Positions 42,846 through 51,459 of a DNA stretch of 64,000 nt are shown here, piece after piece (the stretch's first letter is position 1; every line of letters begins with the position of its first letter). A program made the translations under genes and the position numbers. This DNA is from Acidovorax benzenivorans (GTDB lineage: Bacteria; Pseudomonadota; Gammaproteobacteria; Burkholderiales; Burkholderiaceae_C): assembly GCF_028680575.1 (NCBI RefSeq), contig NZ_JAPCKI010000010.1:1-64000 (forward strand), in the 5' to 3' direction. Under the pieces are notes generated by a model that was given only the letters and a program-made list of their open reading frames with translations, ran no database searches and was not told the origin of the DNA.

Positions 42846-44024
42846 ATGGAAGACATCGTCATCGTTTCGGCCGCTCGCACCGCTGTGGGCAAATTTGGTG
42901 GCGCGCTGGCCAAGACGCCTGCGACCGAACTCGGCGCCATCGTGATCCGCGAAGCCATCGCGCGTGCGGGCCTCTCGTCCGACCAGATCGGCGAAGTCAT
43001 CATGGGCCAGGTGTTGGCGGCTGGCGTGGGCCAGAACCCCGCACGCCAGGCCTCCATGAAGGCAGGTGTGGCCAAGGAAACCCCGGCCCTCACCATCAAC
43101 GCGGTGTGCGGCTCTGGCCTCAAGGCCGTGATGCTGGCGGCGCAGGCCGTGGCCTGGGGTGACAGCGAGATCGTCGTGGCCGGCGGCCAGGAAAGCATGA
43201 GCCTGGCACCTCACGTGCTGCCGGGCTCGCGTGACGGCCAGCGCATGGGCGACTGGAAGCTGGTCGACACCATGATCGTGGACGGCCTGTGGGACGTTTA
43301 CAACCAGTACCACATGGGCATCACGGCGGAAAACGTGGCCAAGCAGTACGGAATCACCCGCGACATGCAGGATGCCCTGGCCCTGGCCAGCCAGCAAAAG
43401 GCAGCTGCTGCGCAAGACGCAGGCAAATTCGCCGACGAAATCGTGGGTGTGAGTCTGGCGCAGAAGAAGGGCGACCCCATCCTGTTCAACGCGGATGAAT
43501 ACCTGAACCGCAAAACCAACGCCGAGGCGCTGGCAGGCCTGCGCCCCGCATTTGACAAGGCGGGCAGCGTGACCGCCGGCAATGCCTCGGGTCTGAACGA
43601 CGGCGCTGCTGCTGTGGTGGTGATGACTGCCAAGAAGGCCGCCGCTCTGGGCCTCAAGCCTCTGGCTCGTATCGCCGCCTTTGGCACCAGCGGCCTGGAC
43701 CCTGCCACCATGGGCATGGGCCCCGTGCCTGCCTCGCGCAAGGCCCTGCAGCGCGCTGGATGGAATGCTGCCGACGTGGACCTGTTCGAGCTGAACGAAG
43801 CCTTTGCGGCCCAGGCCTGCGCTGTGAACAAGGAGCTGGCCATTGACCCTGCCAAGGTCAACGTGAACGGCGGTGCCATCGCCATCGGCCACCCCATCGG
43901 CGCGTCCGGTTGTCGTATCCTGGTCACGCTGCTGCATGAAATGCAGCGCCGTGATGCCAAGAAGGGCTTGGCTGCGCTGTGTATTGGTGGCGGCATGGGC
44001 GTGTCGCTGGCTTTGGAACGCTAA
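42846..44024 (+). CDS. phaA: Acetyl-CoA acetyltransferase (beta-ketothiolase)
   Basis: The product is 392 residues, the standard length for thiolases. Catalytic residues are visible: nucleophile C88 (NAVCGSGLKAV), H349 in GHPIGASGCR and C379 in ALCIGGGMG. It condenses two acetyl-CoA to acetoacetyl-CoA, the first step of PHB synthesis. AAGGA lies 5 bases before the ATG, and the gene starts 70 bp after phaC. A terminator-like hairpin follows at 44106. Confidence 0.95.
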   Translation: MEDIVIVSAARTAVGKFGGALAKTPATELGAIVIREAIARAGLSSDQIGEVIMGQVLAAGVGQNPARQASMKAGVAKETPALTINAVCGSGLKAVMLAAQAVAWGDSEIVVAGGQESMSLAPHVLPGSRDGQRMGDWKLVDTMIVDGLWDVYNQYHMGITAENVAKQYGITRDMQDALALASQQKAAAAQDAGKFADEIVGVSLAQKKGDPILFNADEYLNRKTNAEALAGLRPAFDKAGSVTAGNASGLNDGAAAVVVMTAKKAAALGLKPLARIAAFGTSGLDPATMGMGPVPASRKALQRAGWNAADVDLFELNEAFAAQACAVNKELAIDPAKVNVNGGAIAIGHPIGASGCRILVTLLHEMQRRDAKKGLAALCIGGGMGVSLALER

Positions 44025-44105
44025 AGCCATTAGCCCGGGCGGGGTCGCATCATGGGGTGCAGCTCCGGCCCTATTGATCGATAGCGCAGCTGTCGATGGT
44101 GAGGA

Positions 44106-44132
44106 GGCCGCATGCTATGCGGCCTTTTTTTT
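44106..44132 (+). terminator. Hairpin with T run between phaA and phaB
   Basis: An 8-bp perfect stem GGCCGCAT/ATGCGGCC (44106-44113 and 44117-44124) with a 3-base loop is followed by eight T residues. It would terminate or attenuate transcription between phaA and phaB, suggesting that phaB also has its own promoter in the 281-bp gap. Confidence 0.8.
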
Positions 44133-44305
44133 GATGCATCTGCAGGCGCCACTCCGGTGAAGCCTTGTTCAGCTTGCCTTGCGTCAACTGTGCGATGCAT
44201 GTGGATATGTCAAAAAGGAAAGGGCTTCAGTGTTTTCCTTCACGGCAGTGCCCAATTTCTTCGGTAGAGTGGGTCCTGAGCCAATTACTAACAAGGAGAA
44301 ATCAC

Positions 44306-45043
44306 ATGAGCCAGAAAGTCGCGTACGTCACCGGCGGTATGGGAGGCATCGGCACCGCCATTTGCCAACGTCTGCACAAGGAAGGTTTCAAAGTCATCGC
44401 TGGCTGCGGCCCGACACGGGATCACGCCAAGTGGCTGGCAGAACAAAAGGCCCTGGGATACACGTTTTATGCGTCTGTGGGCAATGTGGGTGATTGGGAT
44501 TCCACCGTGGAAGCCTTTGGCAAGACCAAGGCAGAACACGGCGCCATCGATGTGCTGGTGAACAACGCAGGCATCACGCGGGACCGCATGTTCCTCAAGA
44601 TGTCGCGTGAAGACTGGGACGCTGTGATCGAAACCAACCTCAACAGCATGTTCAACGTCACCAAGCAAGTGGTGTCCGACATGGTGGAAAAGGGCTGGGG
44701 CCGCATCATCAATATCAGCTCGGTCAACGGCGAAAAAGGCCAGGCAGGGCAAACCAACTACTCTGCCGCCAAGGCAGGCATGCACGGCTTCTCGATGGCC
44801 CTGGCTCAGGAACTGGCTACCAAGGGCGTTACCGTCAACACGGTGAGCCCTGGCTATATTGGCACTGACATGGTCAAGGCCATCCGCCCGGACGTACTGG
44901 AAAAGATCGTGGCGACCGTTCCTGTCAAACGCCTGGGCGAGCCCAGCGAGATCGCGTCGATCATCGCCTGGCTGGCCTCGGAAGAGGGTGGATACGCCAC
45001 AGGCGCAGACTTTTCGGTCAATGGTGGCCTGCACATGGGCTAG
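44306..45043 (+). CDS. phaB: Acetoacetyl-CoA reductase
   Basis: The product is 245 residues starting MSQKVAYVTGGMGGIGTAIC after AAGGAG. This is a short-chain dehydrogenase: the nucleotide-binding TGGMGGIG, the NNAG motif, S138/S139, Y152 and K156 (NYSAAKAG) are in place. It reduces acetoacetyl-CoA to (R)-3-hydroxybutyryl-CoA with NADPH for PhaC. The longer frame to 44165 crosses the phaA-phaB terminator and is rejected. A strong terminator follows. Confidence 0.95.
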   Translation: MSQKVAYVTGGMGGIGTAICQRLHKEGFKVIAGCGPTRDHAKWLAEQKALGYTFYASVGNVGDWDSTVEAFGKTKAEHGAIDVLVNNAGITRDRMFLKMSREDWDAVIETNLNSMFNVTKQVVSDMVEKGWGRIINISSVNGEKGQAGQTNYSAAKAGMHGFSMALAQELATKGVTVNTVSPGYIGTDMVKAIRPDVLEKIVATVPVKRLGEPSEIASIIAWLASEEGGYATGADFSVNGGLHMG

Positions 45044-45067
45044 ACATCGGCTCAGTCCCTTTGGACC

Positions 45068-45101
45068 AACAAAAAACCCCGCATCTGCGGGGTTTTTTGT
45101 T
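45068..45101 (+). terminator. Rho-independent terminator after phaB
   Basis: The stem AACAAAAAACCCCGC pairs with GCGGGGTTTTTTGTT around a short ATCT loop, 25 bp after phaB. The A-rich left and T-rich right flanks make it potentially bidirectional. Confidence 0.9.
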
Positions 45102-45106
45102 GGGAC

Positions 45107-45533
45107 TTGCAAGGATTGCAGGGAGATAACCCTGACCTTGCTCTGGTCCGCCTGAGAAATATCGAGCTGAGGTGTCTACATTTCCCACGCTTTGGTATGC
45201 GTCTGCGCTCGTTGTGCAATGAGGGATGTCATCGGCTTACACAACAGCGGCTTGGCGGCAGCGCCTTCAGAAGCGGGCGGGGGCGCGTTTACGGTCGCGT
45301 TCGTCTTCGGGCCAAGCGGACAAGATTGCGGTGGTATTCATGGTGGAAAACTCCTGTGATGTACCAACAACGTCGGCAGTCCACAGTCCGTTGACAACCT
45401 TTCGCAAAAAAATGCAACCGCAATAGCCTGTAGCGTTACATTAAAAAATGCTTCACATTTAATAGCAAAAAAACCATGCTGGTGAATGAGAAATCCTGAA
45501 AATTCGGGTGAGTATTTACAGGACTTTACATCC
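45107..45533. other. Long region without a recognised gene between phaB and the ABC-F gene
   Basis: About 430 bp lie between the phaB terminator and the end of the ABC-F gene. The part from 45390 to 45510 is unusually AT-rich for this genome, with runs of A and TTTAATAGC-like sequence. On the minus strand a 17-codon frame begins at 45342 (MNTTAILSAWPEDETRP, ending at 45289). It is preceded by AGGAG with a 9-base spacer and lies directly downstream of the AT-rich stretch, as if from a promoter. I cannot match it to any family. A small protein, a leader peptide or a small RNA are all possible. Confidence 0.3.
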
Positions 45534-47573
45534 TCAACCCACCGAGGCGACTGAAATTTCTTCGAGTTCGGAAGAAACCTCCAGCCAGCGTTCTTCCAAT
45601 TTTTCCGTCTCGTCGTTCCCTGCTTTCAAACGTCGACCGCACTCGGCGATCTCTGCCGGAGGCAAGGCTTCCGTCAGTTTTTGCTCCAGTTGAGTGCGTT
45701 CTGCGCTCAAAGCAGCCAGACGCTTGTCGATCTGTTCCAGCTCTTTTTTGAGTGGCCGGGTCTTTTCGGCCAGCTGTTGGCGTGTCTGGGCGTCAAGCTT
45801 GCGCTGCTCGCGCCCGTCACGCGAAGGAGCGGAGGCGGGGGCTGGTGCAGGCGCGGCAACGGAGGCCACCGTGACCACGGGTGCCGGTGCGGCGACGGGT
45901 GCAGCTGCAGGGGGCCGTGACGCCTGTGCCTGTTCGGCGAGCCGTGCTTCTTCGCGCAGGCGCTTGGATTCTTCGAGCAGGTAGCGCTGATAGTCGTCCA
46001 GGTCGCCGTCGAAGGGCCCCACAACCCCCCGGCCCACCATCCAGAAGTCTTCGCAGACCGAGCGCAGCAACGAACGGTCGTGGCTGACCAGCATGACGGT
46101 GCCGTCGAAGTCGTTGAGCGCCATGGCCAGGGCTTCGCGGGTCGCCAAGTCGAGGTGGTTGGTAGGTTCGTCCAGCAGCAGCAGGTTGGGACGCTGCCAC
46201 ACGATCATGGCCAGAACGAGGCGGGCTTTTTCGCCACCGCTCATCGTGCCCACGGCCTGCTTGACCATGTCGCCCGTGAAGTTGAACGTGCCCAGATAGC
46301 TGCGCAGGTCTTGTTCGCGGCTAGGCTGCTTGGCGTCGGGACCCAGCTCCTTGGCCAGGCGGATCATGTGCTCCAGCGGGCTTTCGCTGGGGCGCAGCAC
46401 GTCGAGTTCCTGCTGGGCAAAGTAGCCGATGTTCAGGCCCTTGCCTTCGGTCACGCTACCGCCCAGGGGCTTCATGGTGCGGGCTATGGTTTTGACCAGC
46501 GTGGACTTGCCCTGGCCGTTGGCACCCAGAATGCCGATGCGCTGGCCCGCCAGCACAGAGCGGTTGACGCCCGTGAGGATGGTGGTGGGCGTGCCCTCGT
46601 CGTCCACATAGCCGAACGAGGCGTCGCTGATGGCCAGCATCGGGTTGGGCAGGTTGGCAGGCTCCTTGAACTCGAAGGTGAAGTCCGCTTCGGCGAGCAC
46701 AGGGCCAATCTTTTCCATGCGTTCGAGCTGCTTGACGCGGCTTTGCGCCTGCTTGGCCTTGCTGGCCTTGGCCTTGAAGCGGTCGATGAACTTCTGCAGG
46801 TGGGCCATCTTCTCCTGCTGCTTGGAGAAGCTTGCCTGTTGCAGTTCAAGCTGCTGAGCGCGCAGCTCTTCGAACTTGCTGTAGTTGCCACCGTAGCGGT
46901 TCAACTCACCTTGCTGGATTTGCAGGGTGACGTTGGTGATGGCATCGAGAAACTCCCGGTCGTGGCTGATCACGATCATGGTGCCCACGTAGCGCTTGAG
47001 CCAGGCTTCAAGCCAGACGAGGGCATCCAGGTCCAAGTGGTTGGTGGGTTCGTCCAGCAGCAGCAGATCGCTGGGACACATCAGCGCACGTGCCAGTTGC
47101 AGCCGCATGCGCCAGCCGCCGGAGAAGCTGTTAACGGGCTGGTCCAGCTCGCTCACGCGAAAGCCCAGGCCCAGGATGAGCGCCTGGGCGCGGGCCACGG
47201 CATCGTGTGCGCCGGCGTCATGGAGGTCAGAATAAGCGTGGGCAATGGCCATGCCGTCGTCGCTGGCCTCAGCCTCTGCCAGCTGGCGCTGCACTTCGGC
47301 CAAACGCGTGTCGCCTTCCAGCACAAAATCGGTGGCCGACTGATCGGTCTCGGGCATGTTCTGCGCGACTTCGGCCATCCGCCAGCTCGATGGGATATGA
47401 AAATCCCCACCGTCTTCATGCAGCTTGCCGCTGAGCAGCGCGAACAGGCTGGACTTGCCCGCGCCATTGCGGCCCACAAGCCCGACGTTTTCGCCGGGGT
47501 TGATGGTGGTGGACACGCTGTCGAGCACGACTTTCGTGCCGCGTCGCAAAATTACATTTTTCAGTTGGATCAT
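45534..47573 (-). CDS. ABC-F family ATPase (YheS/Uup-like)
   Basis: The product is 679 residues with two ABC ATPase domains and no membrane segments. Domain 1: Walker A GRNGAGKSS, signature FSGGWRMRLQLARAL, Walker B LLLLDEPTNHLDL. A linker of coiled-coil character follows (KMAHLQKFIDRFKAKASKAK). Domain 2: GANGQGKST, MSGGEKARLVLAM, LLLLDEPTNHLDL. The C-terminus has an Ala/Pro-rich linker and a coiled coil (REQRKLDAQTRQQLAEK onward). ABC-F proteins act on the ribosome to relieve stalls or help assembly. Subfamily YheS is suggested by length and layout; Uup is the alternative. It is monocistronic on the minus strand, upstream of the AT-rich block. Confidence 0.88.
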   Translation of the reverse strand: MIQLKNVILRRGTKVVLDSVSTTINPGENVGLVGRNGAGKSSLFALLSGKLHEDGGDFHIPSSWRMAEVAQNMPETDQSATDFVLEGDTRLAEVQRQLAEAEASDDGMAIAHAYSDLHDAGAHDAVARAQALILGLGFRVSELDQPVNSFSGGWRMRLQLARALMCPSDLLLLDEPTNHLDLDALVWLEAWLKRYVGTMIVISHDREFLDAITNVTLQIQQGELNRYGGNYSKFEELRAQQLELQQASFSKQQEKMAHLQKFIDRFKAKASKAKQAQSRVKQLERMEKIGPVLAEADFTFEFKEPANLPNPMLAISDASFGYVDDEGTPTTILTGVNRSVLAGQRIGILGANGQGKSTLVKTIARTMKPLGGSVTEGKGLNIGYFAQQELDVLRPSESPLEHMIRLAKELGPDAKQPSREQDLRSYLGTFNFTGDMVKQAVGTMSGGEKARLVLAMIVWQRPNLLLLDEPTNHLDLATREALAMALNDFDGTVMLVSHDRSLLRSVCEDFWMVGRGVVGPFDGDLDDYQRYLLEESKRLREEARLAEQAQASRPPAAAPVAAPAPVVTVASVAAPAPAPASAPSRDGREQRKLDAQTRQQLAEKTRPLKKELEQIDKRLAALSAERTQLEQKLTEALPPAEIAECGRRLKAGNDETEKLEERWLEVSSELEEISVASVG

Positions 47574-47724
47574 TGAAATGAGTCCGCAATCAGAAACCTA
47601 CGCTGTAGTCACGTCTGAAACGATGCAGCAGTGCACTCTTCAAAACGAGTGCTGTTGGGTTGGACCGACTGGATATCGGGTAGAAGACGGCGGGTGTTCG
47701 TAAAAAACGAGAGCCTATCTTTTT

Positions 47725-49119
47725 TTAAAAGTACAGACTGCCCATTTTATATTGGGCAGCCAGTGTGGTGGTTAGTACATAAAGCGAATAAATTAAAAAG
47801 GCAGTGAGTACGACTTTTTCTGCAGGTCGCGATATCCTGCCTCCAGCCTCTACGCGCCCGATGGATGCGGCAATGAAAAGCATTGGTATAAGAAAATAAC
47901 GCCCCTGCACGCCCCAAATTTTTTCACTTGGATAGTTATTCCAGGATATTGCAAGTGCAAAAAATATAAGCAAAGTGCTAGCAATGCCAATTAATAGAAA
48001 TGTGGCACGTTTTGGCCATTCGCGGCGCCAGGGCGTCACTGCAATCAATACCAGTGCTGTCACAGCTATTGCGACGGAAAAAACTCTGACTGCTTGACGG
48101 GAGATCGGTGTATCCAGCCATCCAAGGATTCCAAGAAATGAATGGCGGTAGAACCTCCGAATTTCAAAGTCGCTGATTGTTCTATTCAATAAATCAAAAA
48201 ACTCACCTGGATTAATTAAATAATTGATCAGTATATTTACAGTGGTGTAATCACGGACAACTCTACTGTCATGCGTGGTGGAAATTCCGAAAGCAATCCA
48301 AGCAACAGTCAATAGGTACATGAACAAGACGGCTGTAATCCGCTGTCGAGTCGGCTGTGACGCAGCAAGTGCGAGCGGCACCAGCAAGGCGGGGAGAAGG
48401 TTGGTGCGTGCAGCACAAAGCACAAGTATCAACCCGTAGAGGCCGATTTCTTGCCATGAAAGTTCGCCATGGTTCCTATATCGATCTGAACTTGAGACCT
48501 GAAGCCACAAACCAATAGCCAATACAGCCATAGCAGTGCAGAGGCCATCGATGGTCGGAGAGTTCAGTTGAAACAACGCCATGGGCGTTGTAAGGAGCAT
48601 TATGAAAAGTACGTTGGGCGTATATAAGAAAAAAGCCCCACCCATAATAGCGAGCGATGTCGCAACCACCAGGGCGCGAGTTATCTCATAACTCGCACGC
48701 ATTGAAAGATCGAGTTTTCGCGAAATAAAAAGCCCAAGTGCATGCGGAGCGTATATTATCGGGAGGTAATACCCTGTTCCTGCTGCATTTGCAAAGTTCT
48801 GTTGGTGGGCCCATTTTATTTGACCCAGGTCACTCACTAGCGCAGGGGTATTTTCCTTGCTGGCGCTGTTTCCAGAAATTCCCATCATGGACTCAATGAA
48901 AACGATCAAATTAGAGTCCACCAGGCCGCCTTCACGCCCCTTGTTTTCAGTGCCTGGCAGCAGTAGCCACTGCCCATGCGAAATCATGTCTGCGCGCATC
49001 AGATGAACATTCTCGTCAGGCGATTGGACTGGCGGGATAAGTCGCGTAATTGCTGTGGCGACCAAAATAACAAGAAAAACAAGAATTATGATTTTGAATA
49101 GCTGTTTTTTGAGTATCAT
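47725..49119 (-). CDS. DUF2142 polytopic membrane protein, probable GT-C type transferase
   Basis: The product is 464 residues from MILKKQLFKIIILVFLVILV; an ATG five codons earlier (49134) is possible. At least ten hydrophobic segments are visible. After the first one comes IPPVQSPDENVHLMRADMIS, with the acidic DE pair expected in the first periplasmic loop of GT-C enzymes and typical of DUF2142. The family is linked with surface polysaccharide loci. It is the last gene of a three-gene minus-strand block with an EamA-type small flippase and a GT2 enzyme, so it may transfer a lipid-linked sugar to a surface glycan. Base composition is clearly AT-richer than the flanks, suggesting acquisition. 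Confidence 0.75.
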   Translation of the reverse strand: MILKKQLFKIIILVFLVILVATAITRLIPPVQSPDENVHLMRADMISHGQWLLLPGTENKGREGGLVDSNLIVFIESMMGISGNSASKENTPALVSDLGQIKWAHQQNFANAAGTGYYLPIIYAPHALGLFISRKLDLSMRASYEITRALVVATSLAIMGGAFFLYTPNVLFIMLLTTPMALFQLNSPTIDGLCTAMAVLAIGLWLQVSSSDRYRNHGELSWQEIGLYGLILVLCAARTNLLPALLVPLALAASQPTRQRITAVLFMYLLTVAWIAFGISTTHDSRVVRDYTTVNILINYLINPGEFFDLLNRTISDFEIRRFYRHSFLGILGWLDTPISRQAVRVFSVAIAVTALVLIAVTPWRREWPKRATFLLIGIASTLLIFFALAISWNNYPSEKIWGVQGRYFLIPMLFIAASIGRVEAGGRISRPAEKVVLTAFLIYSLYVLTTTLAAQYKMGSLYF

Positions 49120-49170
49120 GCTTTCATTCAACACCTTAATGTTTGAATTTATGATTTTTGAAATGATTGC

Positions 49171-49521
49171 TCAAGAAGTGGAGACAATCAGGATCAGCCC
49201 GGCAGCGATCATGGCAGAGCCTGCGAAATAGCCGCCGGAAAATTTCTCTCCAAACAAAAAATAACTTGCAATCGGAACAAAAACAAAAGCAAGCGCCATG
49301 ATGGGGTATATTTTTCCAAGCTCTGCATGCCGGAGTATCAATACCCAGCCAATCGAGGTTATCCCGTAAAGAGCCATTGTGCCACTCAGCAGTAGCAAGG
49401 GTTGCATCGAAAATATGCTGCCAGCCTGATTGATGGCGATGGCACTGTACTTGAACATGACTTGTCCAGTAGCAATCCCCAGGACGCACAGGATGGCTAA
49501 TAGATGAATTCCCGTTACCAT
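49171..49521 (-). CDS. Small EamA/SMR-type membrane protein, probable lipid-linked sugar flippase
   Basis: The product is 116 residues starting MVTGIHLLAILCVLGIATGQ. Four hydrophobic helices are visible, the pattern of half-size EamA proteins such as ArnE/ArnF. The SMR-like RHAELGKIYPIMALAFVFVP segment lies near helix 3. In its setting between a GT2 bactoprenol-type transferase and a multi-pass putative transferase, it likely flips the undecaprenyl-linked sugar across the inner membrane, the job GtrA does in phage gtr cassettes. It begins one base after the stop codon of the GT2 gene. Confidence 0.7.
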   Translation of the reverse strand: MVTGIHLLAILCVLGIATGQVMFKYSAIAINQAGSIFSMQPLLLLSGTMALYGITSIGWVLILRHAELGKIYPIMALAFVFVPIASYFLFGEKFSGGYFAGSAMIAAGLILIVSTS

Positions 49522-49522
49522 A

Positions 49523-50524
49523 TCAAACTCCCTGTTTTGTCGTAATATTCTTCTTTCGCCGAAGGTGCAATAATTTATGCATTGGTCGCTGCGGCTGGTT
49601 AGCCACGTCGCTGGCAATAAATGCGAGGAGTAGATGCAGGCCCGCGATCACAGGCAAAGCTGCCAACATCACTGTGCCGGCAGGGGATGGAACGTTGATG
49701 GCGGATGATTGAATCCAGTGCGTTATCCCAAAAATTGTGCCAAAGCACATGAGAAAAATACCCGCAGGCAGCTGGAGGGACGCGACCGACATGTCGCGCA
49801 AGTAGTAGTTATAAAAAATACGCTTGATGGTGTTTTTGAAATGCTTTCCTAAAAATTCTGGAAGAATTTTTGTGATGCGCAAATTGCTCTCTTCGTCACC
49901 GTACATTGCATCCATGGGAATGTCGATGACTGCGGCACGCAAAGTATTCAAGCGAAAGAGCATGTCGGTTTCAAAAAAATAGCGTTTGCTGATTTTTTCC
50001 ATCGGCAGGTGGCTTGCAACTTTCGCGTGGATGGCCGTGTATCCATTAGTAGGATCAAAAACACCCCAATAACCCGTGGAGAGCTTGCTCATGAACGACA
50101 GAACGGCATTGCCAAAAAGCCGAATGGCAGGCATGTTGTGAATTTCTTCGAGGTGGTAAAAGCGATTACCCTTGGCATAATCCGCTTCTCCGGCGAGCAG
50201 GGGGCTCACAAATGCGGGCAGAAGGCTTGGGTCCATCTGTCCATCGCCGTCTACCTTCACCAATATATCGTGCCCGTCCGCAATAGCACTTTGGTAGCCG
50301 GTCATGACAGCACCACCGACACCTTGATTTTCAGTATGAAAGACGACATGAACCCGGGGGTCAGTGCATTCTGCCGCCACAAAATTCCCTGATTCCTCGG
50401 GGCAGCAATCATCCACGACGTAGATGGCCGCTACTTCTGAGCCTATACGGGCAATAACATCCAGAATATGACGACGGACCCGGAAGCAAGGAATAACTAC
50501 GGCGATAGACATTGAAGGATTCAT
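49523..50524 (-). CDS. GT2 glycosyltransferase, bactoprenol-glycosyltransferase-like
   Basis: The product is 333 residues. The GT-A fold is seen in IAVVIPCFRVRRHILDVIAR, IYVVDDCCPEESG, NQGVGGAVMTGYQSAIADGH and the metal-binding VDGDGQMDP. Two C-terminal hydrophobic segments (LPAGIFLMCFGTIFGITHWI and AGTVMLAALPVIAGLHLLLA) anchor it, as in GtrB and DPMS-like enzymes that load a sugar on undecaprenyl or dolichyl phosphate. Its ATG overlaps the prmB stop codon by four bases, so the acquired cassette is translationally coupled to a housekeeping gene. It is the first gene of the AT-rich block. Confidence 0.85.
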   Translation of the reverse strand: MNPSMSIAVVIPCFRVRRHILDVIARIGSEVAAIYVVDDCCPEESGNFVAAECTDPRVHVVFHTENQGVGGAVMTGYQSAIADGHDILVKVDGDGQMDPSLLPAFVSPLLAGEADYAKGNRFYHLEEIHNMPAIRLFGNAVLSFMSKLSTGYWGVFDPTNGYTAIHAKVASHLPMEKISKRYFFETDMLFRLNTLRAAVIDIPMDAMYGDEESNLRITKILPEFLGKHFKNTIKRIFYNYYLRDMSVASLQLPAGIFLMCFGTIFGITHWIQSSAINVPSPAGTVMLAALPVIAGLHLLLAFIASDVANQPQRPMHKLLHLRRKKNITTKQGV

Positions 50525-51459
50525 AAAATCTCTTGTGACTTCAGCCAGTGGCGAAGAGCGATAGCACTCACCAGCAAAACCTGGTCTTCGCCCGCACTGG
50601 TATCGAGCCAGAAAACGGGCAATTGCGGAAAGGCCGCCTCAAAGTGCGCACGCTCGTTGCCGATCTCCAGAATGATCACGGCGTCCTCGCTCATGCAGGC
50701 GGGTGCGGCGGCAAAGAGCTGGCGCACAAAGTCCATGCCATCGTTTCCACCGGCCAGGGCCAGTTCGGGCTCTGCGCGGTACTCGGTGGGCAGTGCAGCC
50801 ATGCTGGCGGCGTTGACGTAGGGCGGGTTGCACAGGATCAGGTCCCAGGGGCCGGGCAGGGCAGCCAGGCCATCGGACAGCTGCAGCTGGATGCGGTCTT
50901 GCAGGCCGTGTTTGTCCACGTTGATGCGGGCTACGGCCAGGGCGTCGGGCGAGATGTCGGCACCAGTGACCGCCACTTCGGGCCAGGCCATGGCCGCCAG
51001 CACGGCCAGGCTGCCGTTACCCGTGCACAGATCCAGCACCTGGCGGGTGCGGTCGCTCAGGTACTCGTCGGCGCCCCCATCGACCAGCAGTTCAGCGATA
51101 AAGCTGCGCGGCACGATGGCGCGTTCGTCCACGTAGAACGGTACGCCCTGCAGCCAGGCCTCTTGCGTGAGGTAGGCTGCGGGCTTGCGGGTGCGGATAC
51201 GCTCTTCAAAAAGAGTAGCTACCAACGCTTGATCGGCGGGCGCTACGGGCTGATTCTTCATGGAATCCGGGGCATCCGACAGATCGCTGTCCAGCGGCAA
51301 CCCTAGACGCCAGAGCACCAGCCAGGTGGCTTCATCGTGGGCATTGGTGGTGCCATGGCCAAAGGAAACACCTGCTGCTGCAAGGCACTGTGCCCCCGAT
51401 TCGACCAAGGCACCCACGGTATTGCCCGCGAGCGTGGGGTGCTGTTGTGGTGTGTTCAT
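50521..51459 (-). CDS. prmB: Ribosomal protein L3 glutamine N5-methyltransferase PrmB
   Basis: The product is 312 residues. The SAM-dependent methyltransferase core has [20 protein letters not shown] (motif I) and the glutamine-methylation signature NPPYV (in [15 protein letters not shown]). The N-terminal PrmB/HemK-type helical domain is at residues about 15-110. Residues about 68-86 ([20 protein letters not shown]) overlap an in-frame dispersed repeat. Its ATG overlaps the dapE stop and its stop overlaps the GT2 start, so it is tightly coupled on both sides. Confidence 0.9.
51205..51258 (+). repeat. Comamonadaceae dispersed repeat inside prmB
   Basis: The plus strand reads TTCAAAAAGAGTAGCTACCA, ACGCTTGATCGGCGGGCGCT, ACGGGCTGATTCTT, the GAGTAGC variant of the family core followed by CGCTTGAT and GGCGCTACGGGC. 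It is translated in frame on the minus strand. Confidence 0.65.

Follow-up and report, generated by a model that had tools for sequence, protein, structure and literature searches.

A likely horizontally acquired GT2-SMR-DUF2142 gene block behind prmB in Acidovorax benzenivorans resembles a three-component glycosylation cassette

We analyzed a 64,000-nucleotide stretch of the Acidovorax benzenivorans genome (contig NZ_JAPCKI010000010.1; hereafter the window), in which a three-gene block lies between prmB and a gene for an ABC-F ATPase. A first-pass annotation, made from the letters of the window, had placed a GT2 glycosyltransferase, an SMR/EamA-like protein, and a DUF2142 protein at 47725-50524 on the minus strand, and the three open reading frames were found there (Table 1). 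As it had described, the genes are tightly packed behind prmB: prmB and the GT2 gene overlap by 4 bases (ATGA), 1 base separates the GT2 and SMR genes, and the SMR-DUF2142 gap measures 36 bases to a GTG start or 51 bases to the ATG at 49119, the better start, which aligns with a Met of the homologue in a second Acidovorax genome (G038). Because the GT2 start overlaps prmB, we infer translational coupling of the block to prmB. A simple hydropathy count on the G038 homologues gave 2 helices for the GT2 protein and 4 for the SMR protein, in line with the annotated two C-terminal helices and four helices, respectively.

The block has a GC content of 45-49% in 1-kb windows. The two block genes listed by our simple home-made gene finder (GT2 and DUF2142) had GC fractions of 0.46 and 0.49 and third-codon-position GC (GC3) of 0.46 and 0.54, against 0.57-0.69 and 0.69-0.88, respectively, in the 44 other genes that it listed in the window; the small SMR gene, which this list missed, has a GC of 0.48. 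Both measures agree with the AT richness noted in the first pass. A milder second GC dip (0.55-0.57) lies at 44001-46000 of the window.

Table 1. Features of the block and its flanks (positions in the window)
Feature	Position	Strand	Remarks
GT2 polyprenyl-phosphate-type glycosyltransferase (putative loader)	49523-50524	-	333 aa, two C-terminal transmembrane helices; PF00535
DxDxQ motif (DGDGQ) of the GT2 gene	50237-50251	-	
SMR/EamA-type four-helix protein, ArnE-like, candidate flippase	49171-49521	-	116 aa
DUF2142 membrane protein, predicted GT-C terminal transferase	47725-49119	-	464 aa; PF09913
Alternative GTG start of the DUF2142 gene	49134	-	
PDE motif of the DUF2142 protein, after the first helix	49012-49020	-	
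prmB (L3 glutamine methyltransferase), one flank	50521-51459	-	TIGR03533, 307.6 bits, cut-off 229.7
ABC-F ATPase gene, other flank	45534-47573	-	PF00005; synteny
Segment unlike empty-site relatives, approximate extent	47574-50567	-	prmB/ABC-F comparison with G008

The GT2 protein matched PF00535 in Pfam (E 1.2e-15) and the archaeal dolichol-phosphate mannose synthase (DPMS) 5mlz, with E 3.3e-11 alone and 1.1e-17 as a family profile. Matches of the profile to ArnC chains were weaker (E 7.5e-5 to 2.7e-4). With hhalign, we obtained E 2.5e-8 against E. coli ArnC and E 1.5e-4 (probability 52) against E. coli YfdH/GtrB, a poorer match than that to DPMS. The protein also matched the phage family phrog_841, labeled 'GtrB-like' (E 9e-13), and reached ~50 bits against the NCBIfam models PpgS and AglJ, far under their cut-offs. 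Because DPMS, ArnC, YfdH, phrog_841, PpgS, and AglJ all match, the enzyme is assignable to neither Arn nor Gtr, and its sequence marks it as a DPMS-like polyprenyl-phosphate enzyme. Residues D92, D94, and Q96 of the DxDxQ motif are invariant in 11/11 homologues; according to an excerpt of PMC10821137, this motif may mark GT2 enzymes of the polyprenyl-phosphate kind. Judged by sequence only, the combination of DxDxQ with DPMS/ArnC profile matches is that of a polyprenyl-phosphate sugar synthase. The annotated GtrB-like GT2 enzyme thus stands as a GT2 protein with a phrog_841 match, but its character is general and DPMS-like, with the YfdH match weaker than that to ArnC.

We next consider the SMR protein. 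A family profile from a nine-member alignment matched E. coli ArnE (hhalign E 4.9e-12 over 74 columns) and did not match the E. coli GtrA homologue YfdG. In a profile search, GtrA (PF04138) was absent from the own genome of the window, with control matches in 7/14 genomes. These data point to an ArnE-like SMR protein, not GtrA, as the predicted flippase of the cassette. Two scores weigh against this assignment, namely 16.7 bits against EamA (cut-off 28.2) and 37.1 bits against the NCBIfam ArnE equivalog NF011625 (cut-off 92); the NCBIfam ArnF match was likewise sub-threshold. The annotated ArnE/EamA-like flippase therefore holds as a family likeness to ArnE, but not at the level of either cut-off. 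We also weighed whether the protein could be a drug or metabolite exporter placed here by chance, to which a weak match to EmrE (E about 0.01; 0.0076) would point. EmrE carries Glu14 in its first helix. The first helix of the SMR protein lacks an acidic residue, and the central glutamate is often absent from lipid SMRs, as an excerpt of PMC9574504 has it. Together with the better ArnE match and the repeated linkage of the SMR gene to GT2 genes (see below), this makes an exporter very unlikely.

The DUF2142 protein matched PF09913 with E 1.2e-35 (123.6 bits against a gathering cut-off of 30.1). The PDE motif that the first-pass annotation had seen near the first helix is present and is invariant in 29/29 aligned DUF2142 proteins, as are Q32, S33, P34, D35, E36, and H39 just past that helix. 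Several GT-C enzymes carry a catalytic Asp after the first transmembrane helix, as described in part of PMC11127046. An AlphaFold2 (AF2) model of the protein, built on an alignment of 29 sequences, reached a predicted local distance difference test score (pLDDT) of 90.5 and a predicted template modeling score (pTM) of 0.91. When the model was compared with 999 chains in VIA-align, all 46 listed Protein Data Bank (PDB) entries with Z≥6.9 were enzymes of the GT-C class, and the next, unrelated entry dropped to Z 4.9. The matches comprised ALG12 (Z 16.1, 309 residues, 4.7 Å), ArnT (Z 14.2, 326 residues, 4.6 Å), Pmt4, AftB, STT3, AglB, PglB, Emb, and more. The first five PDB matches in Foldseek were also GT-C enzymes, the best being ALG12 (E 2.9e-3).

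Several results speak against a GT-C assignment. By VIA-align's own caveat, mostly helical models reach Z ~14 by arrangement alone, and Foldseek gave nothing in the PDB at E≤0.001. At the sequence level, the protein did not match E. coli ArnT (hhalign E 0.15, probability 0.4), E. coli YfdI, or PDB chains, the last either alone or as a profile. An ArnT-family Pfam match was not found for it. YfdI was the sole Gtr-type terminal enzyme in this comparison, and Gtr-type terminal transferases diverge strongly among themselves. On balance, the DUF2142 protein is predicted to have a GT-C-like fold, as the first-pass annotation had supposed, and to act as a terminal transferase. The contrary outcome named in the first pass, a predicted structure lacking a GT-C active site, was not observed.

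Such a role had been thought new in the first pass; however, DUF2142 as a GT-C transferase is an existing proposal in lactococci. DUF2142 proteins were used there to infer WpsJ and WpsI/polymerase candidates (PMC12599335, in excerpt), and WpsJ is termed a GT-C transferase in PMC10821137, an excerpt of which does not use the name DUF2142. Likewise in excerpt, one further source lists membrane proteins of the DUF2142 family at rgp loci of streptococci, and another names DUF2142 only in a mutation table. The roles proposed for WpsI and WpsJ in these excerpts favor a different reading of our block, in which the DUF2142 protein acts as a polymerase or an oligosaccharyltransferase (OST). The GT2 product would then be the base of a lipid-linked oligosaccharide, and the DUF2142 protein would move this oligosaccharide instead of adding one sugar; the predicted fold is also near OST/STT3 and PglB (Z 9-13). 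We regard this as improbable: the flippase belongs with the small ArnE-type proteins, and the block contains no other cytoplasmic glycosyltransferase or Wzx-size flippase, the genome elsewhere not having been searched for partners.

Instead, we think it likely that the block was acquired horizontally and forms a transmembrane glycosylation cassette of three components that load, flip, and transfer a sugar, as sequence matches and the structural model suggest. At the inner face of the cytoplasmic membrane, the GT2 protein would take a sugar from a nucleotide-sugar and attach it to undecaprenyl phosphate. The ArnE-like SMR protein would flip the lipid-linked sugar, and the DUF2142 protein, as a GT-C enzyme, would transfer the sugar to a periplasmic acceptor. 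Sugar, acceptor, direction, and phenotype of the cassette are what we infer only. Our best guess for the acceptor, which we hold at about even confidence, is O-antigen or another lipopolysaccharide (LPS) glycan; because the own genome encodes 3 Wzy_C (PF04932) proteins, O-antigen-type ligases/polymerases are plausible in it. A variant with another acceptor, in which the cassette modifies lipid A or protein in the manner of Arn or of protein mannosyltransferases (PMTs), draws on the ArnE-like flippase and on the match of the predicted fold to ArnT and protein mannosyltransferases. It is rather unlikely, given the missing sequence match between the DUF2142 protein and ArnT and a block without arn sugar-synthesis genes, for which the genome was not searched.

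To place the cassette in its genus, we surveyed the prmB/ABC-F site in 47 Acidovorax genomes, of which 46 have prmB (G041 gave no prmB match). The gap is empty in 36/46 genomes (-4 to 212 bases) and filled in 10/46 with GT2/SMR/DUF2142 and/or DUF7657 genes. The window genome (G000) and G038 carry GT2-SMR-DUF2142; four genomes (G013, G016, G020, G044) carry GT2-DUF2142-SMR plus a DUF7657/DUF7654 protein of ~855 aa; and four (G018, G019, G035, G042) carry only a DUF7657-type protein. Three of the eight DUF7657 proteins at prmB were assigned by Pfam, and BLAST matches identified the rest. G049, from another genus of the family, also has a GT2 cassette at prmB, the seventh seen there. DUF2142 occurs in 8/47 genus genomes, two of these at only 24-25% identity, and in 3/200 genomes sampled from the order, one of them that of the window (E≤1e-10). 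G000 and G038 are 85% identical in GT2, 79% in SMR, 63% in DUF2142, and 84% in prmB. The first-pass annotation had proposed an insertion behind a housekeeping gene, and the empty sites bear this out; its opposite, a block in all relatives at normal composition, was not observed.

The flanks allowed us to follow the history of the block. The nearest flank relative of G000 is G008 (prmB and ABC-F protein at 96% identity), whose site is empty: the gap measures 2947 bp in the window versus 112 bp in G008. The sister relationship of the two has support 92/84 and is not starred. On the flank tree, from which G028 (contig cut) was excluded and in which G049 was included, the GT2-module label requires 4 changes, 3 of them forced by starred branches. 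The proportion of synonymous differences (pS) against G038 and G049 was 0.74-0.84 in the block and 0.46-0.51 in prmB/ABC-F. The nonsynonymous counterpart (pN) was 0.06-0.34 overall and 0.10-0.34 in the block. Because pN is far lower than pS, the block appears to be under purifying selection. Composition effects aside, the sequences indicate that the block has diverged for longer than the flanks between G000 and G038/G049, although synonymous saturation may partly reflect a composition shift, which counts against this reading.

Vertical descent of the block from a shared ancestor, followed by many losses, would account for the same site being filled in G038, in four more Acidovorax genomes, and in G049 of another genus. 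We consider such a history hardly likely in view of the empty site in G008, the 4 changes on the flank tree, the AT-rich composition, the changed 3′ end of prmB described below, and block synonymous sites that are saturated where those of the flanks are not. The last of these supports transfer well, and the three-gene block was probably acquired horizontally. The sequence of the cassette looks both functional and transferred.

How the block entered is suggested by prmB itself. The DNA alignment of prmB between G000 and G008 ends at nt 892 of the 939-nt gene. Over its last ~10 codons, prmB of G000 departs from the TRQALAAQSRLTAQ type of empty relatives and is, by eye, loosely like prmB of G038 and G049. 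The block would therefore have arrived together with a piece of donor prmB, and the changed 3′ end suggests that homologous recombination via the flanks brought it in. Integration scars in the form of direct repeats were not found; comparison of 240- and 300-base flanks gave a repeat of 9 bases at most. At the other flank, the ABC-F gene scored 695.1 bits against NF007921, under its cut-off of 917. We also considered whether the DUF2142 gene came from a phage, and this was not supported: tblastn gave no match in 50,697 phage records (E≤1e-5), PHROGs has no family for DUF2142, and the model had no match in a viral fold library at E≤0.001. The best viral fold match was an uncharacterised Oenococcus phage protein (E 3.4e-3), and because its Foldseek probability is 1.00, distant GT-C-like phage proteins may exist. 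DUF2142 relatives were present on 6/72,556 plasmid records (best 35%). Proteins of the family, at ~25% identity, lie on 27-kb Lawsonia intracellularis plasmids (NC_008012, NC_020128, NZ_CP107057).

We then examined GT2 homologues away from this site. GT2 matches occurred in 25/47 genus genomes and 36/299 family-search genomes (60 distinct matches), from which we counted 48 GT2 loci, window included (20 from the genus search and 28 more from the family search). The SMR gene adjoins GT2 in 38 of the 48 and lies beyond DUF2142 in 4 further loci. DUF2142 is inside the 1.5-kb flank in 16/48 loci. Third genes elsewhere encode DUF7657-type proteins, Acyl_transf_3 proteins, and proteins with sub-cut-off Glyco_transf_22/DUF2142 matches. 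Among the 11 enlarged genus loci at sites other than prmB (L152-L162), 10 have RF3 (prfC) upstream in the same orientation, several of them with membrane-protein genes between RF3 and the cassette. Two other family members (L164, L165) carry GT2-SMR-DUF2142 directly behind argH. In all four genomes whose prmB site holds only DUF7657, the GT2-SMR pair lies near RF3, and four genomes have three DUF2142 genes and one GT2 (E≤1e-20). What is new here is the recurrence of the GT2/SMR pair, in company with differing third genes, behind prmB, prfC (RF3), and argH.

Some further observations concern these loci. RF3 is a second recurrent GT2/SMR neighbourhood in Acidovorax (L152-L160, L162, L058, L167), in which membrane proteins change and an acyltransferase occurs in two loci. 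A DDE transposase gene lies downstream of the argH cassette in L165. GT2 homologues of G031, G062, and G232 each have one in-frame stop in the match, and these copies are possibly broken. The ~855-aa DUF7657 + DUF7654 family (L049:10922-13483, L170:4131-6797, and kin) shares prmB and RF3 neighbourhoods with GT2/SMR. The DUF7657/DUF7654 protein is possibly another terminal transferase; an AF2 model of a DUF7657 protein from a five-row alignment was unusable (pLDDT 33.5). In four Acidovorax genomes, the DUF2142 gene at prmB is accompanied by two stand-alone DUF2142 paralogues per genome (L064-L070, L080). Stand-alone paralogues were seen in A. soli, CF316, Root219, and A1169.

One lineage shows how third genes may move. 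At L058 and L167, both behind RF3, the DUF2142 gene falls in the DUF2142 clade of the window (support 97/95), while GT2 falls in the RF3-type GT2 clade (100/100), for which RF3 is shown in 10/12 other rows. The GT2 and DUF2142 trees comprised 18 loci picked for having both genes. The GT2 topology test, on a tree of 16 of these 18 loci (all but L168 and L169) plus 12 GT2 loci from the other group, rejected a common clade of the L058/L167 GT2 with the GT2 group of the window (approximately unbiased test, p-AU 1.26e-40); we had picked the tested GT2 clade on the basis of the DUF2142 tree, and the other-group loci without RF3 shown were L119 (not enlarged) and L123. At both loci, DUF2142 has a GC of 0.46 beside GT2/SMR at 0.60-0.62. 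It appears that a DUF2142 gene can sit with a foreign GT2/SMR pair, that is, be exchanged between cassettes, and by sequence the GT2/SMR pair is a stable core with a varying, exchangeable third gene. Three points weigh against the cassette model and this picture of exchange: SMR was not found within 1.5 kb in 6/48 GT2 loci; the eight stand-alone DUF2142 paralogues lack GT2/SMR in the examined flank; and the exchange case is a single DUF2142 lineage at two loci, for L058 and L167 are close relatives and thus count as one case only.

A more tentative reading, which we hold at somewhat below even odds, is a form of surface-glycan switching in Comamonadaceae. A conserved GT2/ArnE-like SMR pair would combine with exchangeable third genes (DUF2142, DUF7657/DUF7654, weakly Glyco_transf_22-like, acyltransferases) at the docking sites prmB, prfC, and argH. 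The cassettes recur behind housekeeping genes and would spread by recombination through these flanking genes, not by phage integration, and some terminal proteins would use the donor lipid in trans. If the cassette model is right, DUF2142, seldom named in the open-access literature searched, gains a concrete, testable Gram-negative role beside presumed donor-making partners, an ArnE-type flippase is joined to a Gtr-like exchange strategy, and the three docking sites make surface-glycan variation of Comamonadaceae readable from genomes.

In the open-access literature, we found neither a pairing of a DPMS-like GT2, an ArnE-like SMR, and DUF2142, nor docking-site exchange in Comamonadaceae, and nothing on Acidovorax with O-antigen and gtrB or on DUF7657. 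Systems of three components that draw on several families of loader, flippase, and GT-C enzyme are on record (excerpts of PMC8035078 and PMC11127046). The ArnC-ArnE/F-ArnT system, which brings undecaprenyl-P-L-Ara4N to lipid A, has the load/flip/transfer logic in common with the cassette: the SMR protein matches the ArnE family, the GT2 protein distantly matches ArnC, and the predicted DUF2142 fold is GT-C, like ArnT. However, the block has one SMR subunit where Arn has two, is without arnA/B/D, and its DUF2142 protein has no sequence match to ArnT. GtrA-GtrB-Gtr(type) O-antigen glucosylation is likewise a small transferred three-gene logic, and the cassette shares with it a conserved loader, with its phrog_841 match, and a faster-changing terminal transferase. 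It differs in its SMR flippase, in a loader only weakly like YfdH, and in the lack of phage genes in the block. A gtr cassette by family was rejected (no GtrA in the genome, no YfdG match, though the loader matches phrog_841); because the flippase is ArnE-like and the genome is without GtrA, the term is an analogy only. Of the Gtr-like logic seen in the first pass, the load/flip/transfer order and the non-Gtr flippase family stood, but the loader is not assignable to Gtr. The lactococcal cell-wall polysaccharide proteins WpsI/WpsJ are DUF2142 membrane proteins with a proposed polymerase/transferase role (PMC12599335, in excerpt), but in a Gram-positive setting with a WpsA/WpsB loader and a Wzx-type WpsG flippase (PMC10821137, in excerpt). 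Finally, the Citrobacter three-component pentofuranose system (GT136) also joins a lipid-linked donor, a flippase, and a GT-C transferase, but makes its donor from phosphoribosyl pyrophosphate (PRPP) and uses a MATE flippase and another GT-C family, as excerpted from PMC11127046.

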